Position numbers and translations under genes: made by a program
Source: Ruminococcus sp.
GTDB taxonomy: Bacteria > Bacillota_A > Clostridia > Oscillospirales > Ruminococcaceae
Length of the DNA: 64,000 bases
Assembly: GCF_016283395.1 (NCBI RefSeq)
Contig: NZ_JAEEMU010000041.1
Location: 67,436-131,435 of the forward strand
Reading direction: 5' to 3'
Notes under the pieces: generated by a model
The model's input: only the letters and a program-made list of their open reading frames with translations
Told to the model about the DNA's origin: nothing
The model's database searches: none
In this document: positions 7,701-63,878 of the stretch, in pieces
How the letters are laid out: each line of letters opens with the position of its first letter
Position numbering within the stretch: position 1 is the stretch's first letter

Positions 7701-10700
7701 TGTTGAAGTTGTAGTAGGCTTCTTTGTTGTTGATGTAGTAGGTTTAGTTGCTGAAGTTATGTTAGGGGTAATTGTTGAAGTTGTAACAGGTTTCTTTGTT
7801 GTTGATGTAGTAGGTTTAACTGTTGTAGTTGTTGAAGTTGTAGTAGGCTTCTTTGTTGTTGATGTAGTAGGTTTAGTTGTTGTAGTTGTTGAAGTTGTAG
7901 TAAGCTTCTTTGTTGTTGATGTAGTAGGTTTAGTTGTTGTAGTTGTTGAAGTTGTAGTAGGCTTCTTTGTTGTTGATGTAGTAGGTTTAGTTGTTGTAGT
8001 CGTTGAAGTTGTAGTAGGCTTCTTTGTTGTTGATGTAGTAGGTTTAGTTGTTGTAGTTGTTGAAGTTGTAGTAGGTTTCTTTGTTGTTGATGTAGTAGCC
8101 TTAGTTGTTGAAGTTGTGGTCTTTGATGTAGTAGATGTTGAAGTCTTAGATGTAGTAGATGTTGAAGTCTTAGATGTAGTAGATGTTGTCTTAGCTGTTG
8201 TTGTAGTTGTAGATGTTGTTGAAGAAGTTGTCTTCTTAGTAGTTGTAGTTGTTGTCATTGAAGTAGGAACGTTGTATACTACTTCGCCTGCAGTGTCTGT
8301 AGACAATGTACCGCCCATTACAGCTGTGAAGTACTCTGAAGGAGCTGTGCCCTTATTGTACTTAGCATAGCCGTTTGTGATTGTACCTGTCTTGATAGCT
8401 TCGATACTTACCTTACCGCCTGTAAGCTTTTCGATAATGTCGATAGTCTTATCTGCCGGGATGTAAATGCCTGCAAGCGGGCTGCTGATGTCAAGCTTGC
8501 CGCTTATAGCTATCTTAGTATTGTTTGTGCAGTAGATACCATAGTTATCTGTACTTGATATCTTACCGCCTGTGATGTTGATCGTACCGTCATTTGAGCT
8601 TGAATAGATTCCGTAACCGTCATCTGCCTTTACAGTTGCACCACTGAGGTTGATAACACCTGAGTAAGATCTGTCAATGAAAATGCCTGCACGGTCATAA
8701 TAACGATTGTTATTAGCAATAGCCTTTGACTCAAGAGTACCGCTTATAAGGTTAGTTGTACCCTTGCTTGATCTGAGTGAGAGCGGATTAGCAGCGTTTG
8801 AAATAACAGTTGCACCGTTAAGAGTAAAGTTACCGTTGCTGTTTACTCCTACTGTTGCGTAATTGTTATTCTTATCATTTCCATAGAAAGTACCGCCAAG
8901 GAGTCTGAGTGTACCGTCTACATTGAACAGTTCATAGCTGCCGGTAGCGTTCATAGTACCTGTCTTTGCCTTGCTACTGTCTCTAACTGTAACTATACCG
9001 TTGCCGCCTATTCTTACTCTGTTGATGCTTACCTTATGACCGTTGAGGTCGAGATCCAGCATTGTATTGCTGTAAATATCGCCTTCAACAGTTACATCGC
9101 AGTCGAGCTTGTACTTACCATGTGTAGGAAGACTGTCCGTCTTGCTCCATGTCTTTGTGTCAGCTTCTACGAATTTAAGGTTGTTGTCAGCAGCGTACTT
9201 CTCTGCATATGTTTCCTTATATCCAACAATAGTATCTACCTTGCTGTTTCTGAGGAAGTTGCCGTTAATGCCTGAAGCATTTGCAACGCTTGCAGGGATA
9301 TAAACTGAAGTTACACCTGAATCGCTGAATACATCATTGCCGATGTATGTTACTGACTCAGGGATCTCAAAGGATTTGAGTAATGTACAGCCGCGGAATG
9401 TTTCACCGCTGAGTGATGTGAATGTAGCAGGAAGAACTGCTGATGTAAGGTTCTTACAATCTCTGAACAAGCCTGATGTATTTAAAGACTTAACTGTGTC
9501 AGGGATAATGATCGACTTGAGACCTGTGCCATAGAATGCACCGTTCTCTATTCTCTCAACAGAAGCAGGGATAACGAGCTCTGTGATAGCTGCATCATTG
9601 TAGAATGCATTATATCCGATTGTCTTTAAGGTATCAGGAAGCTTTATGCCTGTAAGGGCTGTACAGCCGTAGAATGCATTGCTTCCGATAGTTTCAAGTC
9701 CTGATGAGAACTTAACTGATTTAAGTGTTGTTAAATTCTGGAATGCGTTGTAATCGATAGTCTTTATATTTGCAGGTATCTCGATAGATTCAAGCTTTGT
9801 GTTCTGGAAGCAATATCTGCTGATAACTTCAAGCTTTGAAGGTATCTTGATAGATGTTATTCCTGTGCCTGCGAAAGGAGACTGTCCGAGACTTTCAAGT
9901 GACTCAGGAAGCTCGATGCTTGTGAGTGCTGAACAGCCGTTGAATGCATTGCTTCCGATAGTAGTTACAGAATCAGGAATATCAATTGATTTAATTGAAG
10001 TACAGCCGTGGAAAGCCATGTCTCCAATAACAGTTAACGACTCAGGAAGTGCAATTGTTTCAATTGAAGCACAGCCATTGAATGCATAATTTCCGATAGT
10101 AGTCAAAGACTCAGGAAGCTCTACGCCTGTAAGAGCTACACAGCCACTGAATGCATTGTTTCCGATAGTTTCAAGCTTTGAACCAAACTTAACAGTCTTT
10201 AAGTTCGTTGCACTGCCGAATGCATTATCACCGATAGCTGTCATGCTTTCAGGAAGCTCAACAGATTCAACTGCTGAATTATAGAATGCACTTCCTACAA
10301 TTGTTTCTACACTCTCAGGAAGCTTTATTTCCTTAAATGGACTGCCGTAGAATGCACATCTGTCAATTGTCTTAACACTGCTTGGGATACTGATCTCTGT
10401 AAGTGCGCTGCAATTATTGAAAGCATATTCAGGAATAGCTTCAAGCTTTGAAGGAAGCTTTACTGATGTCATCTTTGATGCACCTGCATAAGCATTCTTA
10501 GGAAGCTCTGTACGTGAATCAGAATAAATGATGCTTGTAATGTTTGTATTAGCGAATGAGTTATTAAGTGTCTTTACAGAATCAGGGATAGTGATCTCTG
10601 TTATACCTGTTCCTGTGAAAGGAGTATACCCGATAGTTTCAAGATTCTTAGGAAGTTCGATACTTGTGAGCTTGCTGCAGTTATTGAATGCATAGTTGCC

Positions 10701-13700
10701 AAGAGTTGTCAAAGACTCGGAAAGTGTCACACTTGTAAGTGCAGGACAATAAGAGAATGCATAAGTTCCGATAGTCTTTACAGAATCAGGTAATGTAATG
10801 CTTTCAAGACCTTCACAGTAAGTAAATGCATTATTTCCAATAGATTCAAGCTTTGAAGGGAACTTGATCTTCTTTAAGCTCTTACAATTATAGAAAGCAC
10901 TGTCAGGAATTGCCGTCATGCTGTCAGGAAGCTCGATCTCTTCGATAGATGAACCACTGAAAGCACTGTTGGAAAGTGTTTCGATATTGCTTTCAAGCTT
11001 CAGCTTCTTTATGCCGCTGCTTGTGAAAGCATTTGAACCGATCGATTTAACCGTACTCGGTATTGTAACGCTCTCAAGTGCTGTACAACCGCTGAATGCA
11101 TAGTTCGGAATAGCTGTAAGCTTAGAAGGAAGCTTTACAGATGTCATCTTTGAAGCACCTGCGTAAGCATATGCCGGAAGCTCTGTACGAGAATCAGAAT
11201 ATGTGATAGTCTCGATGTTTGAGCCTGAGAAGACATTATTATTCAAACTCTTTACCGAATCAGGTATCTTGATCTCCTTGATTCCTGTATTGGCAAATAC
11301 ACTATAAGCAATAGTTTCAAGATTCTCGGGAAGCTCAAGCTTTGTAAGCTTTGTACAACCATTGAACGCATAATAGTCTATTCTTGTAACAGAGCTTGGA
11401 AGCTTGATATCAGTAAGCGCAGTACAACCATTGAACGCAGAATATGGGATAGTTGCAATCTTTGAAGAAAGCTTTACTGATCCAAGTGAACTTGCATTTG
11501 CGAATGCATAGTTGCTTAATGAAGTAACAGTCTCAGGAAGCTCTATAGATTCAAGTCCTGAACTCTGGAATGCATAGCTTCCAATGCTTTCAACCGTCTC
11601 AGGGATATCTATGCTCTTGAGAGCTGTACAGCTTGTAAATGCTCCGTAAGGTATCGCTGTGAGCTTTGCAGGGAGCTTAACTGATGTGAGCTTCTTTGAA
11701 CCTGAGCATACATAATTTGGAAGTGTTGTGATATCATCAGCGAATACAACAGATTCAAGATTTGTATTTGCCAACGCATAATTGCTTATGGTCTCAACAG
11801 TAGCAGGTACAGTTAATTCCTTTACACCGCTCTCATAGAAAACATTTGAACCTAAAGATTTTACAGTGCTCGGTATTGTGAACTTTGTAAGACCTGTACA
11901 GCCGCTGAAAGCATTATTAGGAAGAGCTGTAAGCTTTGAAGGAAGCTTTACTGATGTCATCTTTACAGCACCTGCGTAAGCATTTGCAGGAAGTTCTGTA
12001 CGAGAATCAGAATATGTGATAGTCTCAATATTTGAACCAGAGAATGTACTGCTAAGGCTCTTTACTGAATCAGGGATAGTTATTGCCTTTATTCCCGTAC
12101 CTGAGAAAACATTTGAACTTATAGTCTCAAGTGATTCAGGAAGCTCCAGACTTGTAATGTTGCTGCAATTCTGGAAAGCATTGTAATTGATCGTTTTAAG
12201 AGCACTTGGCAGTTTGAGTTCCTTGAGTGAACTACAGCTCTGGAAAGCATATCCTTCTATTGCAGTAACAGTTTCAGGTATCTTCACATCAGTAAGTGAA
12301 GAACAACTTGTAAACATATTACTTGGGATAGATGTAAGCTTTGAAGGAAGCTTTACAGACTTGAGATTTTTAGAACTATTGAACAAACCATAATTGAGCG
12401 TAGTAAACTTATCATCTATCTCAGCAGACTCAAGGTTTGTATTTGCAAAAGCATAGCCAACTATCGTATCAACAGTTGAAGGAACCTTTATGCTCTTTAT
12501 GCTGCTTCCTGCTAAAGCATATGAACCAATAGTCTTTATGTTTGAAGGTATCTCAAAGCTTGTTATCTGAGTACAACCTCTGAATACATAGCTCGGCAAA
12601 GTTGCAAGCTTTGAAGGAAGCTTAGGATCCTTCATCTTTGCAGCACCGCCGTAAGCATAGTTAGGAATTGTTGTTGCGTCATCAGGATAAAGGATAGATT
12701 CAATATTTGAATCAGTGAATGTCTCGGAATTAACATTCTTTACAGAAGCAGGTATCTTGATCTCCTTTATTCCTGTGTTGCTAAAGCAATATGCTCCGAG
12801 TAATGTGATATTCTCAGGAATAGTAATCTTTTCAAGTGAAGTACAATTACTGAAGCAATAGTCAGGTATATTTGTAACCTTGCTTCCAAAATCTACTGAT
12901 GTAAGCTTTGAACAACTATTGAATACACCATAGTTCCAGTGTATTACATGATCAGGCATCTTAAAGCTTTCGATCTTCGTACCTGCAAGACAATATGAAC
13001 CAAGTGTAGTCATTGACTTAGGAATGTTTATTTCCTTTACTCCCGAACCATAGAATGCATTGCTGCCAATGCTTGTAACAGTATCAGGAAGTGTTACCTT
13101 TTCAAGAGCTGTACAGCCGTAGAAAGCACTTGAAGCTACCGTTGTAAGATCAGACGGGAATGTTACACTTTTAAGATTATAACAATCTCTGAATATATCG
13201 TTACCACAGCTGATAGATTTGTCAGGATATGTTACTGTCGTAAACTGTGTATTTCTGAAAGCACGTCCATTTATGTACTTCAGGTTCTTAGGATAATTAA
13301 ACTCTGTAAGACCTGAGGAATAGAATGCCTCGTAGCCGATAGTCTCAACAGTATCAGGAAGCTTAATGCTCTTAAGTGAAGTACAGCCTGAGAACATACC
13401 GCTTTCAATAATCTTGATGTTTGAAGGGAGCTTTACGGAAGCAAGACTTATACAACCGCCGAATGCGTTGGTTCCAATAGTTTCAACAGTATCAGGTATC
13501 TCAAGCTTTGTAAAGCCTGTACTGTTCAAAGCATTGTATTCAATTTTAGTTATATTGTCAAAATTGATACTTGCAAGTTTTGAACAGCCCTGACACATAT
13601 AAGCTGATAATGCAGTAACCTTGCTTGGGAGCTTCAACTCTGTCAGTGATGAACAGTACTGGAAAGCATACGCTCCGATATTTTCAACACTTTCAGGGAT

Positions 13701-15023
13701 ATCAATTGATGAGAGCGAAGAACAATTTGAGAAGAATCCATATGGGATAGCCTTCATATTGCTCGGGAGCTTTGCAGATTTGATGCTTCGGCTATTATAG
13801 AAGACATAGTTTCCCCAGGACTCAACTGTTGAAGGTACATCTATCGACTCAAGAGATGTATTATTGAAGGCATAGTCGCCAACATTTTTTACAGTCTCAG
13901 GGATAGAAACAGACTTTATCTTTGACCATGCAAAAGCATATGATTGTATATCTGTTACCTTCTTGCCGTTTATCTCTGACTGGATAACAGCCTTTGTTGC
14001 TTCATAGTCACAGTAAGCAACCTCAGCATGATCCTTATATACGTTGTAGTATATAAGATCCTTCATTACAACTTCATAATCCTTTGTTGAAGTAGCTGCT
14101 GTTGAAGAAGGATCGATGAGGACATATCCGTCAAAAGGAGTTCCCTTGAGGTAAGAGTCGCTGTCTGTATCAGCCATATGATAAACATTTGTAACATATT
14201 CAGTCTTTACTTTCGGACCTACAAAGCTGAAATATTGCTTATTATAGTTATTGTTTGTACAAATGTTTACGTAATATACATCTTTTGGCTTTGCATCGGC
14301 AGGTACTTCTAAATTCAAGGTTGCAAATGTACCATTTTTACCTTTTTTTACAGTACCGTCTGATGCAGTGCTGCTGCTTGCATATATACCGTAAGTTTTT
14401 CTGCTGCTTGTAGGAGAATAGCTTGAATAACTTACATACATACCTGCTGTTCCGTCTTCTTTTCCGCTTTCAACGCCTTTAAGTGTAAGACGGCTGTCCA
14501 GATCCACATATATCGTCGCATTGGAGTAATACTCATCATTAGCGGCGAAGTTAGCATCATTGACCTTTATAGTCAGAGCTACTGTCGAACCTGGCTTTGC
14601 AACTGTATGGCTTAATGATATTTCCGGATCAGGCTGAAGCCTTTGTGATTCGGGTATAGTAGAAACTGTAGTAGAACTAACTGTCGCTTTGGTTGTCGTA
14701 GTCGTTGTTGTCGTTGTTGCTGATGCAGCAGCTTTTGCAGGTGCGCTTGTAACAGCATCTGATGAAGCAGCTGCCTTTGGTGCAGGAGAAGTTGTTGCGA
14801 CAGGGCTTGTTGTGATTGTTGCGTTGTTTGTCTCCATAATTTTATCAGATGTTATATTGATAATATCTGAAGCGGATATGGAACCGGTCAGTGTTTTTTG
14901 TCCGATATCAGTGTTTGCTGCACCTGCTGAAAGGTTTGCAGGGATCTGCGTTGTGAGCATCGCAGACGCGGCAAGCACGGAAACGAACTTTTTGGTGATC
15001 TTCCCGGGATGTTTATGTCCCAT
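4758..15023 (-). CDS. Giant secreted BspA-like leucine-rich-repeat protein with cohesin-like domain, beta-helix, Thr-rich linkers and dockerin
   Basis: 3421 residues; ATG 8 bases after GGGAGG. Layout: signal peptide (1-36), Thr/Ala-rich spacer (to about 130), a beta-sandwich resembling a cohesin (about 131-310; GSTVALTIKV, then GTFATLNLEVPADAKP), roughly 70 LRR_5 repeats of about 23 residues (325-1955; IPxSVxxIGxxAFxxCxxL), and a right-handed beta-helix-like region (1960-2225). Then come a TTS/KKP linker (2251-2454), CARDB/Ig-like modules (2460-3140), a second TTS/SKP linker (3148-3284), a dockerin (3290-3365; DVNADGLIDAVD, DVNNDGSVDSVD) and a short Thr/Glu tail. BspA-like LRR proteins bind host or plant surfaces. 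The dockerin would fix this one to the cellulosome, so adhesion to substrate is inferred. Whether the N-terminal domain binds a dockerin is unknown. No transmembrane anchor or LPXTG was seen. Confidence 0.92.
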   Translation of the reverse strand: MGHKHPGKITKKFVSVLAASAMLTTQIPANLSAGAANTDIGQKTLTGSISASDIINITSDKIMETNNATITTSPVATTSPAPKAAASSDAVTSAPAKAAASATTTTTTTTTKATVSSTTVSTIPESQRLQPDPEISLSHTVAKPGSTVALTIKVNDANFAANDEYYSNATIYVDLDSRLTLKGVESGKEDGTAGMYVSYSSYSPTSSRKTYGIYASSSTASDGTVKKGKNGTFATLNLEVPADAKPKDVYYVNICTNNNYNKQYFSFVGPKVKTEYVTNVYHMADTDSDSYLKGTPFDGYVLIDPSSTAATSTKDYEVVMKDLIYYNVYKDHAEVAYCDYEATKAVIQSEINGKKVTDIQSYAFAWSKIKSVSIPETVKNVGDYAFNNTSLESIDVPSTVESWGNYVFYNSRSIKSAKLPSNMKAIPYGFFSNCSSLSSIDIPESVENIGAYAFQYCSSLTELKLPSKVTALSAYMCQGCSKLASINFDNITKIEYNALNSTGFTKLEIPDTVETIGTNAFGGCISLASVKLPSNIKIIESGMFSGCTSLKSIKLPDTVETIGYEAFYSSGLTEFNYPKNLKYINGRAFRNTQFTTVTYPDKSISCGNDIFRDCYNLKSVTFPSDLTTVASSAFYGCTALEKVTLPDTVTSIGSNAFYGSGVKEINIPKSMTTLGSYCLAGTKIESFKMPDHVIHWNYGVFNSCSKLTSVDFGSKVTNIPDYCFSNCTSLEKITIPENITLLGAYCFSNTGIKEIKIPASVKNVNSETFTDSNIESILYPDDATTIPNYAYGGAAKMKDPKLPSKLATLPSYVFRGCTQITSFEIPSNIKTIGSYALAGSSIKSIKVPSTVDTIVGYAFANTNLESAEIDDKFTTLNYGLFNSSKNLKSVKLPSKLTSIPSNMFTSCSSLTDVKIPETVTAIEGYAFQSCSSLKELKLPSALKTINYNAFQNCSNITSLELPESLETISSNVFSGTGIKAITIPDSVKSLSSTFSGSNIETITYSDSRTELPANAYAGAVKMTSVKLPSKLTALPNNAFSGCTGLTKFTIPSTVKSLGSNVFYESGVKELTVPATVETISNYALANTNLESVVFADDITTLPNYVCSGSKKLTSVKLPAKLTAIPYGAFTSCTALKSIDIPETVESIGSYAFQSSGLESIELPETVTSLSNYAFANASSLGSVKLSSKIATIPYSAFNGCTALTDIKLPSSVTRIDYYAFNGCTKLTKLELPENLETIAYSVFANTGIKEIKIPDSVKSLNNNVFSGSNIETITYSDSRTELPAYAYAGASKMTSVKLPSKLTAIPNYAFSGCTALESVTIPSTVKSIGSNAFTSSGIKKLKLESNIETLSNSAFSGSSIEEIELPDSMTAIPDSAFYNCKSLKKIKFPSKLESIGNNAFTYCEGLESITLPDSVKTIGTYAFSYCPALTSVTLSESLTTLGNYAFNNCSKLTSIELPKNLETIGYTPFTGTGITEITIPDSVKTLNNSFANTNITSIIYSDSRTELPKNAYAGASKMTSVKLPSKLEAIPEYAFNNCSALTEISIPSSVKTIDRCAFYGSPFKEIKLPESVETIVGSAFYNSAVESVELPESMTAIGDNAFGSATNLKTVKFGSKLETIGNNAFSGCVALTGVELPESLTTIGNYAFNGCASIETIALPESLTVIGDMAFHGCTSIKSIDIPDSVTTIGSNAFNGCSALTSIELPESLESLGQSPFAGTGITSIKIPSKLEVISRYCFQNTKLESIEIPANIKTIDYNAFQNLTTLKSVKFSSGLETIGSNAFYGCTALTGIKLPDTLKTIGYNAFYNDAAITELVIPASVERIENGAFYGTGLKSIIIPDTVKSLNTSGLFRDCKNLTSAVLPATFTSLSGETFRGCTLLKSFEIPESVTYIGNDVFSDSGVTSVYIPASVANASGINGNFLRNSKVDTIVGYKETYAEKYAADNNLKFVEADTKTWSKTDSLPTHGKYKLDCDVTVEGDIYSNTMLDLDLNGHKVSINRVRIGGNGIVTVRDSSKAKTGTMNATGSYELFNVDGTLRLLGGTFYGNDKNNNYATVGVNSNGNFTLNGATVISNAANPLSLRSSKGTTNLISGTLESKAIANNNRYYDRAGIFIDRSYSGVINLSGATVKADDGYGIYSSSNDGTINITGGKISSTDNYGIYCTNNTKIAISGKLDISSPLAGIYIPADKTIDIIEKLTGGKVSIEAIKTGTITNGYAKYNKGTAPSEYFTAVMGGTLSTDTAGEVVYNVPTSMTTTTTTKKTTSSTTSTTTTTAKTTSTTSKTSTSTTSKTSTSTTSKTTTSTTKATTSTTKKPTTTSTTTTTKPTTSTTKKPTTTSTTTTTKPTTSTTKKPTTTSTTTTTKPTTSTTKKLTTTSTTTTTKPTTSTTKKPTTTSTTTTVKPTTSTTKKPVTTSTITPNITSATKPTTSTTKKPTTTSTTTLTTSTTSTTTTQPILRVDGELHVKEMTEDEIIKRGIDIRNPDNFNCVQYSIEADFEAAGVVFNRIVQWDEGYEPLNYVYLEVDGEKPLLITDRPYVYVDEIHAHVIHEETVDEDMYLIIYGESKWLKEFYDVQLIVTNKGTGTLTDCTARLNVPNGLTLVDGSVVEDIGSLAPNQVATRNWCVRGDKEGDYSLSAVFSGMNGSDPFALTYRSQENLHVYAYDALKMTVEVPSLSYYGRNYPIKITLKNVSDKPVYNLETTIKGKQQGSKATLYFTNLDTDGNLTSLGAITKEQTLYTRRGTHYFPVDLNPHQAVTYTVNVPDVWASVFERYVSSYDFDRNTALILQVLEERPELMNVDGIRSVFEAAVGEMPVEHILKDVIVQFYGSNAIDCEIKVKERTPDQRIPVRRVASNTANQLVSELFFEAYKHADKTTNQYINFTNHYIQYVTTDSPFFIDDFDEYINRYNRNLLPFTDELNLILHSHGELPTNIRIEADVIRNFAPFGNSKVKAAASENSFTLADINGTELNEDGSLTVKGDTIIRVSSDQIGASGKLIVDYSDGTTEEIKISNVEKHECKSTSGYTLVAAPKDGKEGLAVRRCDTCGEICDSITINPKATAMLSNKNTYADVKVAVEEAAQLDTKTELSLFGNITIASDITIPENVDVLIAPDTNITVKNGAKIVAKGKVNDFSGREYNLTGNGPLVATTTTTTTTTSTTTTTTTATSSTTSKATTTSTTSTSTTSKPTTTSTTSTSTTSKPTTTSTTSTSTTSKPTTTSTTSTSTTTSKPTTTSTTSTSTTTSKPTTTSTTSTSTTTSKPTTTSSTSTSTTTSEPTTTSTVTTTVPVVVNYGDVNADGLIDAVDASVVLRQYALVATHQDGIIKEENLAAADVNNDGSVDSVDASIILRYYVYYSTITEPVSLEKFVKNNVIESIEIEADAQSDDEPVTTTTTTAATSAEPKTTTTTTTIAVPQTTKVD
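5174..5580 (-). repeat. Tandem coding repeat, Thr/Ser/Lys/Pro linker 2 of the LRR protein
   Basis: Seven or so near-identical 42-45 base units encode TTTSTTSTSTTSKP variants. The DNA copies differ by few bases, which indicates recent expansion or gene conversion. The array links the C-terminal Ig-like modules to the dockerin and is likely to be flexible and perhaps glycosylated. Confidence 0.85.
7665..8265 (-). repeat. Tandem coding repeat, Thr/Lys/Pro linker 1 of the LRR protein
   Basis: A 57-base unit encoding about 19 residues (PTTSTTKKPTTTSTTTTTK) is repeated about six times almost unchanged at DNA level. Degenerate SKTSTSTT units lie at its N-terminal side. It joins the beta-helix-like region to the Ig-like modules. 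Long valine-rich reading frames on the opposite strand are only its mirror image. Confidence 0.85.
10490..12720 (-). repeat. Higher-order repeat within the LRR domain
   Basis: A recognisable block recurs with its YSDSRTELP or YPDDATTIP segment near 12661, 11991, 11174 and 10501, each followed by YAGAxKMTSVKLPSKL. The spacings are about 670, 817 and 673 bases, that is about 223 residues, with the middle unit longer by about two LRRs. This points to duplication of whole groups of nine to ten LRRs. Confidence 0.6.
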
Positions 15024-27971: not shown

Positions 27972-29453
27972 TTACTCATTTGCCGTTTCAACAACAGAGC
28001 CTTCGGGAATAGTCAGCAAAGCTCCGATAAACAGCGGGATACGTGTTTCTCTGTCATATATACAGTAAACGAAAGGTCTTGTAAGATATACCTCCTTAGG
28101 CGGCATACCGCTTCCTGCCAGACCACCCGTAACAGCAGCTGCTGTAGCCTTTGTTCCTTTTTCATTGACATCAAGCGTTGTCTTGTGCTTGACGTAGTGC
28201 AGCCATGTCGGCACAGGTGCTGATGTAAGACCTGTGAAATTGGCTGTTTCTTCAAATGCACCTTCCATTCCCATTGCTTTCAGTTCTTCTTTAAGGTCGT
28301 TTTCATATTCCAGAGTATATTTCGGCATTGATGTGAGCGCGACCTCACATTTATTCTCTCCCTGAGCAAGAAGTGCGTCAAGTTTTTCATTTGTCAGGCT
28401 CTTGATATAATCATGTATATCTATATCCTCATGCGGCAGAAGAGCTGCATATCCGATATTCTTGTCCTTATAGTCTTTTATAAATCCGTCCGTATCATCA
28501 TCACCTATATAATCAGCCCCGCACGTCATGAATTTACAGGTCTGGTCTGTTCCGAAAACATCTGTAAACTCCCAGTTGCTGACCTGATACCTCATATAAT
28601 CGTTCGCCCATTCCGCATCAAGAACTACGGCATTGATGATAAAAAATACTTCATTCGGATCTATTTCGTCAATTATTTCAGGGATATAGTGTCTTGTATT
28701 TTCGTCTACCCATTCATTTACATTTTTAAGGGTATTACCGTTAAATGGCGACAGATAGTAATCCGCATCGTAGTAATTCAAATTTGTCTGTATAAATTCG
28801 GGAACCGGTATGATCAAACTCGGATCATCTCTTACCCATACGGAATTTGCAGTTTCTATCACCGATCTATTGCTCGAACCGACCTTTTTCCTGAACAGAT
28901 ACAGATATTCATTCAGTTCTTCAATAGGAACTCCGCCGAGCACCTGCTCCATTTGCTCAAGTGTTTCGCCTCTTGCTCCATTTGTAGTCATTGCAAGAGA
29001 CTGCATTACGGAATAAGGTGATATAAATATATTTTCATTTTTGCCATCATCTATCGCTTTCAGAAGCTCAGTTGCGAATTTGCGCTGACCTGCTGCAAAT
29101 TTATCGTCCGCTGCCATTCCTTTGACCTCAGATTTTGCTATACCAGAGCAAAGGTTACGTGAAACAGACAGTTTTTGCTCAGGCGCATCTTTTATCAGCA
29201 TCTTTCTCATCTGACAGAGATCAAAGACATCATATGAACCGTCACCGTTTACATCTCCGTTGTCAGCGTTTTTAAGCTCGCCCTTTCCGCCCAGCCAACG
29301 CTGATACATTACAATATCAGAAATATTGAAAACTCTGTCATCATTTACATCTCCATTGCCGACTATATCCTGTGCGGAAATGCCTGCCGAGGCAAATGCC
29401 GGCAGCGTCATGCCTAATGCGAGTATAGCTGCAATTATTCTTGAACATCTCAT
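27972..29453 (-). CDS. Secreted serpin (serine protease inhibitor) with N-terminal dockerin
   Basis: 493 residues from the ATG at 29453 (AAGGAGG 8 bases upstream; the frame is open further up but without a ribosome site). Signal peptide ILALGMTLPAFASAG, then a dockerin (about 31-88; DVNDDRVFNISD and DVNGDGSYDVFD) and a full serpin fold (about 115-490) with NIFISPYSVMQSLAM and the C-terminal RPFVYCIYD. The reactive-centre hinge NEKGTKATAAAVTGG has the small residues needed for loop insertion, so it should inhibit. Counting from the hinge puts P1-P1' near Gly-Ser, which suggests elastase- or subtilisin-like targets. It would protect the cellulosome from proteases. A second dockerin serpin lies directly upstream. 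Confidence 0.95.
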   Translation of the reverse strand: MRCSRIIAAILALGMTLPAFASAGISAQDIVGNGDVNDDRVFNISDIVMYQRWLGGKGELKNADNGDVNGDGSYDVFDLCQMRKMLIKDAPEQKLSVSRNLCSGIAKSEVKGMAADDKFAAGQRKFATELLKAIDDGKNENIFISPYSVMQSLAMTTNGARGETLEQMEQVLGGVPIEELNEYLYLFRKKVGSSNRSVIETANSVWVRDDPSLIIPVPEFIQTNLNYYDADYYLSPFNGNTLKNVNEWVDENTRHYIPEIIDEIDPNEVFFIINAVVLDAEWANDYMRYQVSNWEFTDVFGTDQTCKFMTCGADYIGDDDTDGFIKDYKDKNIGYAALLPHEDIDIHDYIKSLTNEKLDALLAQGENKCEVALTSMPKYTLEYENDLKEELKAMGMEGAFEETANFTGLTSAPVPTWLHYVKHKTTLDVNEKGTKATAAAVTGGLAGSGMPPKEVYLTRPFVYCIYDRETRIPLFIGALLTIPEGSVVETANE

Positions 29454-29523
29454 TGGTTTTTCCTCCTTTATCAGTAAGCCGCCATTGTTGACGGCTTGTA
29501 TTACATCGGTCACTATAAGCATA

Positions 29524-29556
29524 AAAGCTCTCCTGCCATAAAGACAGAAGAGCTTT
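29524..29556 (-). terminator. Hairpin between the two serpin genes
   Basis: Thirteen paired positions (two G-U) around a TTTAT loop, followed on the minus strand by TTTTATGC. It would end the upstream serpin transcript, so the two serpins may be separate units or share a partly read-through mRNA. Confidence 0.65.
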
Positions 29557-29567
29557 CAGCAGTTGCA

Positions 29568-31493
29568 TTACTTTTCTTCAAGCTGTGTAGCCGCACCAAT
29601 AAACAGCGGTACATTGTTCTTATCAACTATCATATAAACAAAAGGTCTGTTAAGGTAGATATATACCTCTTTCTTCTGGATAGGAGCAGCTGCACCCAGT
29701 CCCATTATTACAGCTGTTGCAGCAGCAGCCTTTGTACCCTTTTCGGTAACTTCGATCTTTGTCTTATGGAGAACATCATCAATGTATAAAGGAAGTGCTC
29801 CTTCGACAGAGAGATCATTTATCTTTGAAAAGTCAGCCTTTGATGAATCGAATGCTGTTTCCATTCCAAGCTTCGGAAGTATATCCTTCAGCTTCTTTTC
29901 GTAATTATACTTGAACTTAGGTATCATTACATAAAGGTCTATAGTTGAAGGATCAGCGTATTCCTTTAATCCTTCGGCAAGTGCTTCACCGTCAAGGTCC
30001 TTCACGTAGCTTTCAAAATCAACGTCCTTATGAGGAAGTATGCCTACGAAGCTGTAATCACCATTCTGATAAGGCTTCTTGAAAGCATCGGCATTGCCGA
30101 GGTCATAATAAAAGCTTTCCATACTGTTCATTTCCTGAATAGGATGCTTGTCACCGTTCAGGTCGGTGAATTCGCCGTCTTGTGTGCTGAGATAGGGGCT
30201 CATCCATTCTGCTTCAAAATACAGGGTATTCAGCAGAAGCATAGCTGTATTTTCCTTTATGTTTTCCCTTTTGATAAGATTTGGTATCATGCCCTTTGTA
30301 TTCTTGTTTACCCAGCTGTTTATGTCCTTGACTATTTTGTCCTCATTTCCCTTAAACTTGCACTTGTACATCTCAGAGTTATAGTACTTGCTATTTGTTT
30401 CAAGGAACTCGTCATATACCTTGAATGTAGGATCGTCCCTGAACCATATAGAGTTTGCAAGGTATACCTTTTCCTTCTCCTCATCAGGCAATCCCTTGAC
30501 ATAATATGCCATATACTCGTTTATCTCATCAAGAGTAAGACCGTTTCCGAGCACCTTTTCCATTTCCTTCTTTGTTTCGCCCTCAGCTCCGTTTGCAGTC
30601 ATTGCCAGAGCTGTTGAAATGGAAAGCGGAGACAAAAGAAGATTTTCACTGTCATTCTCAGGGTCAAAGCACTTTTTCAGAAGATCAACACCGAATTTCA
30701 TTTCTGCAGCAGCAAATTTTTCGTCAGTCTTTACGCCCTCCTCAGCCTTTACGCTTACAGTATTGTCAAGGCGCACACTTCCGATATTTGAAGCTCCGTT
30801 GAACTCCTTTGCACTTCCGAGAACGAAATCCGTTACCTGTCTGAGGTCCTCTTCGGTTATCTCGGTATCCATGTCGATATCCGCATTAAGGAACTGCACT
30901 TCGCTCAGCTTATACGAAAGATTTCCTGCGATATACTTCTTGTATGTAACAATGTCAAATGAGTCTATAACTCCGTCATCGTTTATATCGCCGTAGATAT
31001 GCTCATTGGGATCCTTTATGGATACTATCTGGCTTACATAGTATTTATCGCTTCTTCCCCATGAACCATATCTGCTTGTATCTGTCATATCATCATATTT
31101 TTTCCTTGCAGCGAATTTGATGTTGACTCTGTCCTCACGTTTGAGCGTACTTGCCAATTCATGGTTATCAGCCTCATAAACCCTTGCAGACTCTTCATAA
31201 TCATCACTGTTCAGCACTATCTCTTTATGAAATGAATATTCATACCAGTTGCTTCCAGTTGAAGGTATAAGGTCAATGGTTATAATCCCGGAAAAATTAT
31301 GAACGTCATAGATATACGCATCAAGAAACTCATATTCATACATTTGAGTTTCCTCGTTGTAGCTAACGCTGGAGTAGCTTTCCTCTGCGTGTACAATCGG
31401 CGGCGGTGGGAACACCCCTCCCGAATAGCTTAACAGCAATGCAGTGCCAACAATGCCTGCTGCCAATCGTTTCATTTTTTTAGTTCTGCCCAT
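29568..31493 (-). CDS. Secreted serpin with an extra N-terminal module and internal dockerin
   Basis: 641 residues from the ATG at 31493 (GAGGAGTG 6 bases upstream; an in-frame ATG at 31529 lacks a site). Signal peptide (RLAAGIVGTALLLS to VHAEE), an unrecognised beta-rich module of about 115 residues (about 35-150), a dockerin (about 165-225; DINDDGVIDSFD, and a less regular DIDMDTEITEED), then a serpin domain (about 260-640). The hinge TEKGTKAAAATAVIMG is fully inhibitory in type; the predicted P1 region Leu-Gly-Ala again suggests small-residue or elastase-like proteases. The serpin parts of the two neighbours are clearly related, but their N-terminal halves differ, so duplication was followed by module shuffling. 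Confidence 0.95.
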   Translation of the reverse strand: MGRTKKMKRLAAGIVGTALLLSYSGGVFPPPPIVHAEESYSSVSYNEETQMYEYEFLDAYIYDVHNFSGIITIDLIPSTGSNWYEYSFHKEIVLNSDDYEESARVYEADNHELASTLKREDRVNIKFAARKKYDDMTDTSRYGSWGRSDKYYVSQIVSIKDPNEHIYGDINDDGVIDSFDIVTYKKYIAGNLSYKLSEVQFLNADIDMDTEITEEDLRQVTDFVLGSAKEFNGASNIGSVRLDNTVSVKAEEGVKTDEKFAAAEMKFGVDLLKKCFDPENDSENLLLSPLSISTALAMTANGAEGETKKEMEKVLGNGLTLDEINEYMAYYVKGLPDEEKEKVYLANSIWFRDDPTFKVYDEFLETNSKYYNSEMYKCKFKGNEDKIVKDINSWVNKNTKGMIPNLIKRENIKENTAMLLLNTLYFEAEWMSPYLSTQDGEFTDLNGDKHPIQEMNSMESFYYDLGNADAFKKPYQNGDYSFVGILPHKDVDFESYVKDLDGEALAEGLKEYADPSTIDLYVMIPKFKYNYEKKLKDILPKLGMETAFDSSKADFSKINDLSVEGALPLYIDDVLHKTKIEVTEKGTKAAAATAVIMGLGAAAPIQKKEVYIYLNRPFVYMIVDKNNVPLFIGAATQLEEK

Positions 31494-31595
31494 AATAAAC
31501 ACTCCTCTCATGTCGTATGGATATAACAATCCATGTTACAATTATAACATTATATACCATAAATGTCAACAATAAATGTGAATTTTAATACACAA

Positions 31596-33282: not shown

Positions 33283-33789
33283 TTCTAAGCTCCTTTCGTC
33301 ACCGGGTGCGATAATTGAGGCATCCGAATTGGCATTTGGTTTTGAGCTGCCATTGTTAAGTGAAGGATCCTTTATTAGTACTGTTGAAACCTTAGCATTG
33401 GCAGATGAATTCTGTGAAGCTGCGGTAACAGTGGATTTGCCGCTGTCCTTTACAGCTGTATTTGTAGTTCCGGCTCCATTCTTTTCAGGTGAAGCTGTCG
33501 TATGGGGCGAACTCGTATGTATTGCAGTATCCTCTTCCACCGGCTGCGTTGTAGTGACCTGCTGATCTGTGACAGTTTCCGTCACTATTATCTCATCATC
33601 ATTCGGAAGGATAGGCTGATTATTTTTCATAAGATCATGAACTGCGAATACACAAATAATAATGGCTGCACAAAGACACGAAACAGTACATGATATGTTT
33701 TTGATACGACGAGCCCGCTTTCTTTTGCTTTCAATTATTGCATCGCCTTTTTCAAAGACACTTGCAATAGTTTCTTCATAGCTTTTCAT
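33283..33789 (-). CDS. Membrane anti-sigma-factor-like protein, in frame with the next gene
   Basis: 169 residues from the ATG at 33789 (AAGGAGGG 8 bases ahead). Its 5' end overlaps the 3' end of the ECF sigma gene by 14 bases, the usual sign of a sigma/anti-sigma pair. A basic cytoplasmic segment (1-31) leads into one transmembrane helix (about 32-50) and a Ser/Thr-rich outer part. There is no zinc-finger HxxxCxxC motif and no RsgI-type sequence I can name, so the role comes from context. No stop codon separates it from the secreted dockerin protein; residue 170 would be that protein's start Met. Either the two are translated as one membrane-anchored fusion or a frame change at the junction is missing from this copy. 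Confidence 0.65.
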
Positions 33790-34330
33790 ACACAAAGCCC
33801 TCCTTGATAAGTTCTGCTTTCAGGGTCTTTCTGGCATGATAAAGAATATCACGGACCTGTTTTTCTGTTTTTTTCATTATGCTTGCCGTTTCTCTGTTTG
33901 AAAAATCCTCGAAGTATGTCAGATACAGTGCCTGCTCATATTCGGGTTTAAGTTTTCGTATAGCCTTATGTATAACGCGTTTTTCCTCATTCTGAATGAT
34001 CCTGCCTTCGAGGTTTTCCTCGCTTACTTTTGACTCGGCATCATCAAGAGAAGTCTGCAAAACAGAAGAATTCTTTCTTATATAATCAACTGCCGTAAAT
34101 CTGGCAATGGAATAAAGCCATGTCTTGAATGAGCTTTTTCCTTTATATTTGGGCTTTTTGACATATAGTTTTACAAAAGTTTCTTCCATTAATTCTTCAG
34201 CGATATTTATATTACATACAAGGCTTGACAGGTATAAGACAAGACCGTCACGGTATATGCGCATAACTTCTGCGAGACCGTCCTTGTCACCTGATAGAAA
34301 ACGGCGGTAGCTACTTTCACCGTTATCCAT
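33776..34330 (-). CDS. ECF (sigma-70 family) RNA polymerase sigma factor
   Basis: 184 residues with region 2 (about 20-90; AEELMEETFVKLYVKKPKY and FKTWLYSIARFTAVDYIRK) and region 4 (about 120-175; EQALYLTYFEDFSNRETASIMKKT). The length and two-domain layout are those of ECF factors. It would direct polymerase to a set of genes when released from the anti-sigma protein encoded next. By analogy with SigI/RsgI of Clostridium thermocellum, the signal may be an extracellular polysaccharide or the state of the cellulosome, but that is inference. Confidence 0.93.
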   Translation of the reverse strand: MDNGESSYRRFLSGDKDGLAEVMRIYRDGLVLYLSSLVCNINIAEELMEETFVKLYVKKPKYKGKSSFKTWLYSIARFTAVDYIRKNSSVLQTSLDDAESKVSEENLEGRIIQNEEKRVIHKAIRKLKPEYEQALYLTYFEDFSNRETASIMKKTEKQVRDILYHARKTLKAELIKEGFVYEKL

Positions 34331-59507: not shown

Positions 59508-59544
59508 GAACGCTTCCGAGAGATTGGAAGCGTTCGCCTTTTTA
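59508..59544 (+). terminator. Terminator between the prepilin gene and the dockerin/SAM operon
   Basis: Perfect 10-base arms GAACGCTTCC / GGAAGCGTTC with an 8-base loop, GCCTTTTTA on the plus strand and TTTAGGTTTT on the minus strand, so it can serve both convergent units. Confidence 0.85.
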
Positions 59545-59593: not shown

Positions 59594-60286
59594 TTAATTA
59601 AGACCAAGAAGCTTCTCCTGGATAGCAAGTGCATCACTTACAGTCAGACCGTCGCCGTTCATATCAGCATTGCGTTCGCCTTCGGAAGTAAGATGATTAT
59701 CAGATGTACCGTTCAAGCCATACTTATTCGGATTTGCAAGAGCCTGCATTACAATAACAGCATCAGACATATCAACATCTCCGTCGCAGTTTGCATCACC
59801 ATTTGCCGGTCCAAGCACTCCCATAAGAGGCGGAAACTCCTCTGTAGTTGTTGTTTCAGTTGTTTCTTTTGTTGCTACTGTAGTACCTATCATTGAAGGA
59901 GTTATTGTTGGTGCAGCAGTAGTAGTTATTTTGGCAGGGGCGACTGTAGTACCAACCATTGACGGAACTGTCGTTGTTGTTTCTATCTTCGCAGTAGTTG
60001 TACCTATAAGCCCTGTAGTAGTTGTTGTAGTTGTTGTGGTGGGCTTTTTGGTAACTGTAGTGCCTACCATTGAAGGAACTTCAGTAGTAGTTGTAGTTAT
60101 CGGCAGCTCATCGTCAGGCAGCATAACTACACCTGCGGTAGGAGCAAGCTCGTCAATGTAATCGGGATCAGTCGCCTGACCGGTCATTTTCCAAACTTCT
60201 TCCGAAGCTGCTGAACCTGCGTTCGCAGAAAGCCCCACAGTAACAGTTGCTAAAAGCGATGCTATCTCTTTTGTAAATTTCCTCAT
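59594..60286 (-). CDS. Secreted dockerin protein with PSMVG-type repeats, candidate substrate of the adjacent radical SAM enzyme
   Basis: 230 residues. Signal peptide (1-26; SLLATVTVGLSANAGSA), a short acidic stretch, then a Thr-rich region (62-150) holding five spaced copies of a small motif: PSMVGTTV (71), GLIGTTT (92), PSMVGTTV (108), PSMIGTTV (130) and PPLMGVLG (152). A dockerin closes the protein (163-230; DANCDGDVDMSD and DMNGDGLTVSD). There is no enzymatic or binding domain. The only Cys is in the dockerin loop. Its ATG overlaps the stop of the radical SAM gene by 4 bases, so the two are made together. The repeats are the likely modification sites. It would be exported by Sec and held on the cellulosome. 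The coding region is certain, the function inferred. Confidence 0.88.
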   Translation of the reverse strand: MRKFTKEIASLLATVTVGLSANAGSAASEEVWKMTGQATDPDYIDELAPTAGVVMLPDDELPITTTTTEVPSMVGTTVTKKPTTTTTTTTTGLIGTTTAKIETTTTVPSMVGTTVAPAKITTTAAPTITPSMIGTTVATKETTETTTTEEFPPLMGVLGPANGDANCDGDVDMSDAVIVMQALANPNKYGLNGTSDNHLTSEGERNADMNGDGLTVSDALAIQEKLLGLN

Positions 60287-61266
60287 TGTTTATTCCCTCC
60301 GTTTTCCTTAGATAATATTTCAAGTGCAGTAAGTATCTGCACCTGTTCCTCCATACAAGCGGCTTCCGAGATATCTCTTACAGTGCCTGTTGTAGCCATT
60401 TTTCTGCACGCGCAGGAGTTGCGGCAATACATAGCTATCTCGCAGCCTTTACATCTTTCCGAAAGCATTGAATAATCTGGGTGGGCTTTTCTTGCCTTTT
60501 CAGCCTCTATACCAACAAAAACATCGCCGCAGCGGTATTCGGCTATATTCTGGAACTGAACACAGGGATAAAACTTCCCGTCCCAATTGATAAAGACCTT
60601 CTTTCTGCATATCTCGCAGGTACTTGGTTTGTGTTCCTTGATACTGTTCTTTTTGGCAGTGAGCTCATACATAAAAAGGTCCTTTATTTCGCCTATTTTT
60701 CGCCACTGTTCTCTCATAATATCGCCGAAGCTGTCAAGATCCTCGGGCATCAGGAATGCGTCCATTGTTGCCGAGACTTTTTTAACGCCAAGCCCTTTCA
60801 GATACATGATATTATCATATAATTTCGGAAGCGTCTGCTCTGTGTACACAAGCTGGACAAGTGTTTCGGGCTGATATTTCAGTAATATTTTCAGATTTGC
60901 ATCAAGAACTGCCATATCTACGCCGCGCTCCGTACATTCTTTACCGTCATGGGACATATTGATAACAACATTCTTTCTGTCCATACACCACTTTATGAAT
61001 TCTTCATCGAGCAGCGTACCATTGGTGGTAATAACGATCTGTTCCGCATCTATATTCTCACAGTAGTACTTTACGGTATCCTTGTAAAGCAGCGGTTCAC
61101 CGCCAAAAAGATAAACTGTCTCTGCATTTCCCTGCTTCTTTATGTACTCTGCGATCTTATCTCTCATTTCATCGGTGATGCAGCCGTATTCAGTGTTAAG
61201 ATGCCTTTCATAACAATAACTGCACTTCAGATTGCATTTGTTGGTTATGCTGATAGTATAGTCCAA
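60283..61266 (-). CDS. Radical SAM/SPASM-domain enzyme (peptide or protein maturase type)
   Basis: 327 residues from a TTG at 61266 (ribosome site weak). The radical SAM cluster motif is at Cys11, Cys15, Cys18 (CNLKCSYCY), followed by YLFGGEPLL (GGEP 55-58). A Cys-rich C-terminal SPASM/twitch region (Cys217, 220, 235, 246, 272, 275, 281, 285, 287; CKGCEIAMYCRNSCAC) binds extra [4Fe-4S] clusters. Such enzymes modify peptides or proteins (sactipeptides, epimerised peptides, anaerobic sulfatases). The only coupled gene encodes the PSMVG-repeat dockerin protein; no sulfatase, peptidase or RiPP transporter is adjacent. The N terminus may be short: an upstream frame reading ..SLNGSEMIF ends close to this start and one extra T would join them. 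Confidence 0.9.
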   Translation of the reverse strand: MDYTISITNKCNLKCSYCYERHLNTEYGCITDEMRDKIAEYIKKQGNAETVYLFGGEPLLYKDTVKYYCENIDAEQIVITTNGTLLDEEFIKWCMDRKNVVINMSHDGKECTERGVDMAVLDANLKILLKYQPETLVQLVYTEQTLPKLYDNIMYLKGLGVKKVSATMDAFLMPEDLDSFGDIMREQWRKIGEIKDLFMYELTAKKNSIKEHKPSTCEICRKKVFINWDGKFYPCVQFQNIAEYRCGDVFVGIEAEKARKAHPDYSMLSERCKGCEIAMYCRNSCACRKMATTGTVRDISEAACMEEQVQILTALEILSKENGGNKQ

Positions 61267-61406
61267 AATATCATCTCGCTTCCGTTTAAAGACTCGCAGA
61301 TCTCATTAAGATCGTTACTGTAAAAGAATACGTATTATTTACTGTTCACTTATTAGACGAAGGATTATATAAAAACTCTCACCTGTTTTAAAAATTTTTT
61401 TCTGCC

Positions 61407-62590: not shown

Positions 62591-63727
62591 TTATTTTACG
62601 GGAAGCGAAGGTATAAGTCCGAGAAGATACTTCTGTATAACCAAAGCATCATTGACTGTCATACCGTCTCCGCCTTCAACGTCTGCATTTGCAGTTCCCT
62701 GCTCGGTGATGTGATTTTCATCAGTACCTTTAAGTCCGTATTTATCGGGATTTGCCAGCGACTGCATTATAAGGACGGCATCTGACAGATCAACTGTTCC
62801 GTCCATATTGGCATCGCCTGCCAAAGTTTGCTTTTTCGGTGTTTCTTCATTTTTTATAAGCGGCTGTGAGCCTGCTTCCTGCCCGGGAGTTTTAAGGTCA
62901 AGTGTACTTGAAGCATAATATGTATACCCTTTCTCCTTGCAGTACTTCTTTATCGAGTCGATCACCTTGCTGTCCTTGGTATATTCAAGCAGATAAACAT
63001 CTTTGCCGTAGTCGGCTACAAGCTTGCAGTAGTCCTGAAAATACTCTCTGTCCTCATCGCTGTTCTTGGTAAAAGTATCATGGTCCCAGTCGATGGCACT
63101 GAAAACCGATTCCTGATTTACAGCGTCCATAACAGCGTCAAGGCTCTTGTTCTTCTTTGCATACTCTGTTACATAGGTATCACCGCCGTTGATGATAACA
63201 TATGTGCCGTATTTTTTGAAGCCTTTGAGTATTTCCGTTACGCCATTGAATATTTCAGTTTTTTTGAAGTTATAGTACACATCGCAGTTGTCAACAAAAA
63301 GTCCGTCAACGCCCTTGTCGAGTATCTTCTTTGCAAGATCATCAACTACGAATTTCTGCCAGTCTTTCTGGGAAACATCTACCCATCTTTCATCTTCCCA
63401 GTTCTCGTATACACCGAGGAAGTAATCTTCATAATTCTTGAAATAAGAGCGGAATTCTTCAACAGAACCAAGGTTTATATAGCTGTAAACAGTGTGGCCT
63501 GAGTCCTTTAGTCTGGTGATCTCTTCCTTATCAAAATACTGAGCATCTATGACGATCTTTTTATAGCACTCCATATCGGAAACATCTTCGGGATCTGCGC
63601 CGAGAAAAACGCCGTACTCATATTTGATATCTGCTGCTTCTGCCTTTAAAATGCTGAAATTTGCTGTAAATACTGCCGAACACATTGCAATTGCCGTAAC
63701 TATACTTGATATTCTGTTGTTTTTCAT
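62591..63727 (-). CDS. Secreted GH114-like glycoside hydrolase with C-terminal dockerin
   Basis: 378 residues from the ATG at 63727 (GAGGG 6 bases ahead; an in-frame start at 63769 is less likely). Signal peptide (RISSIVTAIAMCSAVF to AEA), then a TIM-barrel domain (about 35-285) of the endo-alpha-1,4-polygalactosaminidase type: KKIVIDAQYFDKEEI, VYSYINLGSVE, RWVDVSQKDW and GVDGLFVDNCDVY. A dockerin ends the protein (about 305-370; DANMDGTVDLSD and the GGDGMTVND loop). GH114 enzymes cut galactosamine-containing polymers, so it may attack microbial biofilm or fungal wall polymer rather than plant wall. The substrate is inferred from the family. Confidence 0.9.
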   Translation of the reverse strand: MKNNRISSIVTAIAMCSAVFTANFSILKAEAADIKYEYGVFLGADPEDVSDMECYKKIVIDAQYFDKEEITRLKDSGHTVYSYINLGSVEEFRSYFKNYEDYFLGVYENWEDERWVDVSQKDWQKFVVDDLAKKILDKGVDGLFVDNCDVYYNFKKTEIFNGVTEILKGFKKYGTYVIINGGDTYVTEYAKKNKSLDAVMDAVNQESVFSAIDWDHDTFTKNSDEDREYFQDYCKLVADYGKDVYLLEYTKDSKVIDSIKKYCKEKGYTYYASSTLDLKTPGQEAGSQPLIKNEETPKKQTLAGDANMDGTVDLSDAVLIMQSLANPDKYGLKGTDENHITEQGTANADVEGGDGMTVNDALVIQKYLLGLIPSLPVK

Positions 63728-63878
63728 TCTAACCCTCTTTTCTAAGATCAGTATTTTAACGAATTTCATAAGGGAGCATTTCCCTTACATTAGTATATAC
63801 GAAACAAAGAAAAGATTTCAGACAAAAATTATTAAAAAGTAAAAAAGACCTGCACATAGGTTATATGCGTATATAGAT

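Follow-up and report, generated by a model that had tools for sequence, protein, structure and literature searches.

A radical SAM/SPASM enzyme gene linked to a dockerin-bearing repeat protein in Ruminococcus: a predicted two-gene modification cassette

The window analyzed here is a stretch of 64,000 nucleotides from a Ruminococcus sp. contig (NZ_JAEEMU010000041.1). It carries on the minus strand an adjacent pair of genes, which encode a radical S-adenosylmethionine (SAM) enzyme with a SPASM domain (327 amino acids (aa), TTG start) and a secreted Thr-rich repeat protein with a C-terminal dockerin (230 aa, ATG start), termed here the partner. Sequence comparisons indicate that the enzyme very probably modifies this neighboring secreted protein. 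The two genes probably constitute a stand-alone modification cassette, a judgement that covers the proposed explanation as a whole (cassette, leader, Gly sites, export and docking). A first-pass annotation had described a SPASM enzyme overlapping a secreted 230-residue protein by 4 bases, and both open reading frames (ORFs) were found where it had placed them (Table 1).

In the proposed mechanism, the SPASM enzyme would be translated first, and translation of the substrate would be coupled to it. In the cytosol, the enzyme would recognize the leader MRKFTKEIxxLLA, which would also be the signal peptide, and would act repeatedly on Gly-centered motifs in the disordered Thr/Pro-rich core. The modified protein would then be exported by the Sec route, signal peptidase would cut off the combined signal peptide and leader, and the stalk, now modified, would be plugged by its dockerin into a cohesin, either of the cellulosome or on the cell surface; both the Sec export and the cohesin binding are steps that we infer. 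In some distant relatives a lipid anchor would replace the dockerin, making the anchor exchangeable.

Linkage of the two genes and conservation of the leader

A scan of one genome per species yielded 32 loci with the enzyme (57–95% identical). In all 32, the next gene 3´ of the enzyme encodes a leader-type secreted protein rich in Thr or Pro that begins with M[RK]KF[TI][KR][EDQ]I, and a dockerin-like C-terminus was observed on the downstream proteins where the contig is long enough. The enzyme is thus genetically linked to a dedicated precursor throughout, as is expected of ribosomally synthesized and post-translationally modified peptides (RiPPs). The co-occurrence across Ruminococcus for which the first-pass annotation had proposed a search is strongly positive, and none of the 32 loci showed what it had named as a refutation, namely sulfatases or unrelated peptides next to the close homologues. 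The 4-base ATGA overlap suggests, from the gene arrangement, translational coupling of the enzyme and the substrate; it is exactly 4 bases in 22 of the 32 sequences measured (the window and 31 loci, L004 being left out).

Within the genus, the enzyme is present in 34 of 125 genomes (E ≤ 1e-60) and absent from 91, and the leader is present in 35, which are the same 34 and one weak case, G043. Dockerins are found in 125/125 and cohesins in 119/125 of these genomes; the pair is therefore not a by-product of having cellulosomes. All enzyme-bearing genomes except G037 (33/34) have a cohesin match. In 21 genomes, a single enzyme per genome was detected (E ≤ 1e-30).

No other family of ORFs of at least 100 aa occurs in the flanks of at least 5 of 30 sequences, a count from which L005, L018 and L023 were lost. 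When the count was repeated on 33 sequences, with a less strict threshold and a minimum ORF length of 50 aa, one outside family appeared in at least 5 loci, which is sigma-factor-like; the other families that reach 5 loci lie inside the two genes in other frames, as judged by representatives. No conserved transporter, peptidase or immunity gene was seen in the flanks of the 33 sequences, 10 of which are shorter than 10 kb, so that far neighbors can be missed. In six of the 33 sequences (L001, L002, L006, L011, L012 and L021) a member of the sigma-factor-like family is found a few kb or less from the pair, at varying distance and on varying strand; a similar ORF of the window, at 33776–34330, is far from the pair.

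The signal peptide of the partner was read by eye. Its leader pattern is kept at the level of amino acids and not of codons: K3, F4 and I8 are constant across 33 sequences while the leader codons change synonymously. When 21 genomes were searched with a 45-position profile of the N-terminus, the linked gene was the best match in every one; 19 of these linked genes are themselves in the profile. Beyond the linked genes, only three matches with E < 0.001 were obtained in these genomes (the next has E = 0.0065); the profile thus does not pick up other signal peptides. The signal peptide of the neighboring GH114-dockerin protein provides a comparison. In two pairs with L004 it is 33% and 24% identical, whereas the leader is 80% and 77% identical; in the close pair of the window and L001 the values are 79% and 97%. 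An ordinary signal peptide is not expected to be so tightly kept, and the conservation therefore fits a recognition leader that doubles as the signal peptide. A leader conserved across precursors that carry a variable core is also the arrangement of RiPP precursors.

Two of the three additional profile matches are readable (L077 and L078), whereas the remaining one has a broken frame at the end of a contig. L077, from the genome of L022 (R. flavefaciens XPD3002), is an unlinked leader protein with a dockerin and two readable IPPLAGTIVAS-like repeats, in a stretch that is partly N. L078 is a leader protein of 79 residues with a single YEGGMM and without a dockerin.

Gly-centered motifs in the core and in distant relatives

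The first-pass annotation had noted five PSM(V/I)G-like motifs in the Thr-rich region. The glycines at 75, 95, 112, 134 and 156 are all present, and the motif is literal in only three cases (75, 112 and 134), the remaining two reading GLIG and PPLMG. Two earlier glycines, at 36 (KMTG) and 52 (PTAG), look part of the same series, and further core glycines lie at 92 and 159. The repeat region is free of Cys, as had also been stated: the sole Cys of the partner, residue 167, lies inside the dockerin. In a MAFFT alignment of 31 partner proteins, G36, G75, G112 and G134 are the only core columns conserved to at least 90%, in a register of repeats that is uncertain at a mean column identity of 15%.

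The repeats, for which the first-pass annotation had proposed an alignment, were compared in 44 linkers (6238 residues, 427 glycines), which were kept from 49 rows after 5 near-copies or cut rows had been dropped. A conserved Gly emerges where the repeats are anchored on Pro-Pro followed by a residue other than D, E or P: Gly occupies +3 in 96 of 104 such sites. The flanks of these 104 sites vary, with Leu (63) at +1, Ala (44) and Met (27) at +2, and Thr (26), Asp (23) and Val (19) at +4. Over 426 sites, Gly is most often preceded by Ala (112), followed in frequency by Ile (59), Val (46), Met (39), Glu (38) and Gly (38), with Pro in few, and the residues after Gly include Thr, Val, Asp, Gly and Glu. 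The general form is x-x-G-x at a spacing of often 14–22 residues. On this pattern, the Gly motifs are likely to be the modification sites. Because neither neighbor of Gly is constant and the core of the window has no Cys, Gly is the only position present at every site; hydrogen abstraction from the Gly Cα is accordingly a first guess, to which we give slightly less than an even chance.

The composition of the cores bears on two known chemistries. The Cys that would donate a thioether in sactipeptides or ranthipeptides is lacking from the core of the window, and Cys is not a regular element of the family, being present in 18 of the 44 linkers (33 residues of 6238); thioether chemistry is therefore disfavored. 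Aromatic residues are scarce (32 Trp, 181 Tyr and 95 Phe in the same 6238 residues), which disfavors three-residue cyclophanes.

In a tree of the enzymes, from which eight rows (L084, L085, L088 and L092–L096) are absent, a branch with support of 100/100 separates the dockerin-linked enzymes from the rest. Their side includes L074 and L075, which are diverged second enzyme copies in the genomes G225 and G418 (50% and 48% identical to the enzyme of the window). Beyond the branch, enzyme relatives at ~30% identity adjoin lipoproteins. The lipoprotein partners of L071–L073, L081, L083 and L092–L096 carry motifs like LAGDV, LEGEA, LDGDV, LMGET and IAGGM, and the partner of L081, with 98 residues, is largely a row of LxG-type motifs after the lipid anchor site. 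In 12 lipoproteins from 8 loci, 39 core motif matches were counted against a shuffle mean of 14 and maximum of 28 (1000 shuffles), these proteins and the motif pattern having been chosen after the motif had been seen. No Pfam dockerin was detected in the 5 lipoproteins of distant relatives that were scanned. Because the partners of some distant relatives carry the motif without a dockerin, the Gly motif and not the dockerin would be the probable target, and the dockerin appears not to be intrinsic to the system. The likeness of the motifs is suggestive of a common chemistry, short of proof.

The lipoproteins beside the related enzymes L079, L080 and L085 carry a different conserved pattern, EHG.GR.S[FY]GC.SV..P.[FY]LSEEEA.QVI, and for two of them, beside L079 and L085, a comparison with NCBIfam gave no match at E ≤ 0.01. 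These enzymes and lipoproteins possibly form another undescribed enzyme-substrate pair.

The enzyme and the alternatives for its chemistry

Pfam assigns Radical_SAM (2.9e-16) and SPASM (1.2e-4) to the 327-aa enzyme. The radical SAM cysteines are residues 10, 14 and 17, and the SPASM cysteines are residues 216, 219, 234, 271, 274, 280, 284 and 303 (the numbering leaves out the start Met). Across 28 enzyme sequences, C10, C14 and C17 and the pattern CX12GX4C-gap-CX2CX5CX3C-gap-C are invariant. An N-terminal CxxxCxxC with this SPASM Cys set places the protein among the radical SAM/SPASM enzymes. An AlphaFold2 model of the enzyme resembles CteB, ChlB and the anaerobic sulfatase maturase anSME, with structures of EpeE also in the fold lists.

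These predicted resemblances were compared with the known systems. The enzyme aligns with the SCIFF maturase CteB (PDB 5wgg, 5why) from approximately residue 95, leaving the N-terminal part of CteB, in which the RiPP recognition element (RRE) lies according to the portion of PMC8326336 consulted, without a counterpart. CteB makes thioethers to Cys, and the second Cys of the C-E-I-C of the window enzyme (219) has no counterpart in CteB. CteB has only one Cys of the Aux I pair C216/C219, and the presence of both here hints at a fully ligated cluster. The model also resembles ChlB with the ChlA leader (PDB 9gm3, 9gmc); a literature search on ChlB found no paper. The PapB ranthipeptide maturases (NF047865), of similar length, are the best NCBIfam match among those listed. 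PapB joins Cys to Asp or Glu, as reported in the part of PMC9413430 consulted, whereas the core of the window has no Cys and the score falls well below the 340-bit cutoff. Three lipoprotein-linked relatives of the enzyme score 186–202 bits on the same model.

The closest functional parallel is the TVG pathway (TvgA/TvgB) of Halomonas anticariensis, in which, by the part of PMC9062424 consulted, TvgB acts in TVGG repeats on the residue that precedes Gly. In both systems a radical SAM enzyme would modify a peptide substrate that contains numerous short X-G repeats. According to the same part of that source, TVG comprises five genes, among them oxidase and transporter/peptidase genes, whereas two genes are present here; the partner also differs in its signal-peptide leader, its repeat spacing of often 14–22 residues, the variable residue before Gly and the dockerin anchor. 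A TvgB-like reaction would alter a side chain, that of the residue preceding Gly, giving cyclopropylglycine from Val and possibly Ile in V/I-G, with the other X-G positions as spacers or non-sites. This reading is unlikely: TvgB changes the residue before Gly, and Ala, Glu and Gly, which together precede many of the glycines (112, 38 and 38 of the 426), cannot yield cyclopropylglycine. Val or a similar branched residue does not regularly precede Gly in the repeats, the commonest Gly pentapeptides being TAGVP (10) and TAGVA (8).

Somewhat less likely again is an epimerase that makes D-residues beside the Gly motifs and thereby hardens the surface stalk against proteases. Such an enzyme could tolerate varied residues before Gly. 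In the part of PMC8326336 consulted, EpeE epimerizes Val and Ile, PoyD is proposed to act at 18 sites, and epimerases use a critical Cys; the enzyme has one Cys, C286, in addition to those of the standard SPASM set, and this residue is conserved to at least 90% in 58 relatives, and the EpeE matches of the predicted fold point the same way.

It is improbable that the enzyme acts on another target, either the dockerin itself or an unlinked protein, with its neighbor as a passenger. The paralogues L074 and L075, which lack a linked leader protein, and at least one unlinked leader protein (L077) would agree with this idea; the linkage in 32/32 loci with no other constant neighbor argues against it. 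The dockerin in particular is disfavored as the target because the scanned lipoprotein partners of distant relatives lack it, and because dockerins occur in the 91 genus genomes without the enzyme as well. Least probable of all, to the point that we reject it, is an anaerobic sulfatase maturase or other housekeeping SPASM enzyme that lies beside an ordinary dockerin protein by chance: anSMEcpe has the fold and the SPASM domain in common with the enzyme, but the score on the sulfatase maturase model is 57 bits against a cutoff of 349, the family has Val or Ile after the SPASM Cys (YPCV/I) where anSMEcpe has the YPCD Asp that we take to be catalytic, no sulfatase was seen among the close neighbors, and the enzyme is linked to the repeat protein in all of the 32 loci.

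Several observations weigh against modification of the partner by its neighboring enzyme at the Gly motifs. Among the 25 NCBIfam matches listed, none reaches its cutoff, PapB itself attaining 102.5 bits. By alignment to CteB, where the match starts at chain residue 95–99, the enzyme has no N-terminal RRE. An RRE fused to the N-terminus is common in radical SAM RiPP enzymes, although not universal. No small constant neighbor that might be a discrete RRE protein was found among flanking ORFs of at least 50 aa, no RRE-profile search having been made. A leave-centre-out repeat test without the Pro-Pro anchor did not single out Gly (at the strictest threshold, G 0.78, P 0.78 and T 0.71). G043 has a leader-profile match (E 6.4e-5) and no enzyme, which would be a remnant or a chance match. 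L074 and L075 have no leader protein in the fetched stretch, and these paralogues may act in trans. Among 16 class-level matches (L090 and L097 left out of this analysis), repeated LxG partners were found in 7, other lipoproteins in 5 (L079, L080, L085, L091 and L089, the last with a single VLAGDA) and no clear partner in 2 (L084 and L088). The lipoprotein relatives lie far away in the tree (branches of 2.6 and 3.2), where long branches meet in an unsupported group (21/0), and the LxG motif that some of their partners share with the dockerin-linked proteins could be convergent.

Docking of the product and other features of the window

Pfam Dockerin_1 matches residues 163–226 of the partner (2.5e-6; 28.0 bits against a cutoff of 22.9), and such a dockerin module marks a cellulosomal protein. 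A dockerin match at E ≤ 0.05 was obtained for 23 of 31 partner proteins, in which Gly163, Asp164, Asp175 and Asp218 are invariant. The dockerin of the partner contains the segments VIVMQALANP and ALAIQEKLL, which come close to VxIMQxxxNP / ALxIQKxxL, the signature of group 1; dockerins of this group are reported, in the part of PMC2930009 consulted, to bind ScaA-type cohesins. Other family members carry different dockerins at the same place, as judged by eye, which indicates that docking would be kept across the family while the cohesin partner may change. The partner has this dockerin and a Thr-rich linker in common with ordinary R. flavefaciens dockerin proteins and differs from them in its conserved leader, its Gly motif repeats and its constant radical SAM neighbor. 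The literature searches found no report that connects a radical SAM maturase with a dockerin protein, a weak negative given the poor coverage of subscription papers and preprints. Papers naming radical SAM, dockerin and cellulosome concern, by title, C. thermocellum transcriptomes and a Klebsiella genome, and those on radical SAM and Ruminococcus flavefaciens include none on the enzyme-dockerin pair, by titles and the starts of abstracts.

The first-pass annotation had read the pair as a RiPP system. The leader, the repeated core and the SPASM enzyme fit that reading in logic; it does not extend to a demonstrated natural product, since the target is a long, retained and anchored protein and does not clearly resemble a small peptide that is released. 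A stalk that is anchored and non-catalytic points to a role in structure, adhesion or protection more than to a diffusible antibiotic. The pair could tentatively represent a class of radical SAM products that are displayed and not released, with repeated Gly-centered modification, a stalk hung on the cellulosome or the membrane and a signal peptide as the leader. The usual picture of a cellulosome is that of a scaffold carrying carbohydrate enzymes and related modules, and a conserved radical step on a docked non-catalytic component would add a function such as adhesion, protection, competition or spacing, of which the literature searches found no test. A bond formed at X-G without a Cys or aromatic partner would, if true, be new chemistry, and one enzyme acting on many such repeats would open a route to further peptide-modifying reactions. 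The dockerin would offer a ready handle for purification of the product.

Table 1. Features of the gene pair, with positions in the window.
Feature	Position	Strand	Basis
Radical SAM/SPASM enzyme	60283..61266	-	Pfam; AlphaFold2 model, mean pLDDT 93
Predicted substrate: secreted Thr-rich repeat protein with C-terminal dockerin, 230 aa	59594..60286	-	Pfam; homologue 3´ of enzyme in 32/32 loci
ATGA overlap, enzyme stop / substrate start	60283..60286	-	4 nt
Codons 1–13, conserved leader MRKFTKEIASLLA, start of signal peptide	60248..60286	-	Profile and codon comparison
Thr/Pro-rich core, residues 30–162, Gly-centered motifs G36, G52, G75, G95, G112, G134, G156	59801..60199	-	Linker and alignment analysis
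Type I dockerin, residues 163–226, near the group 1 signature published for R. flavefaciens FD-1	59609..59800	-	Pfam; signature compared by eye
Promoter-like site 5´ of enzyme	61364..61392	-	Weak
Terminator-like hairpin 3´ of substrate gene	59508..59535	-	Listed on both strands

The promoter scan of the region performed no better than chance, giving 7 promoter-like sites against 7.5 in shuffles. The GH114-type glycoside hydrolase with a dockerin is encoded at 62591–63769 on the minus strand, and 4 of 30 sequences, counting the window, have a homologue of it close to the pair. Two adjacent secreted proteins at 27972–31529 (minus strand) resemble, by eye, dockerin-serpin fusions; SIGN-Doc-SERPIN proteins are listed for FD-1 in the part of PMC2930009 consulted. 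A secreted protein of 3421 residues at 4758–15023 (minus strand) shows, by eye, extended repetitive blocks, a dockerin-like segment and two Thr-rich linkers of considerable length. These two linkers (164 and 146 residues) are without Gly; the pattern that found them excluded Gly, and the observation shows only that such linkers exist.
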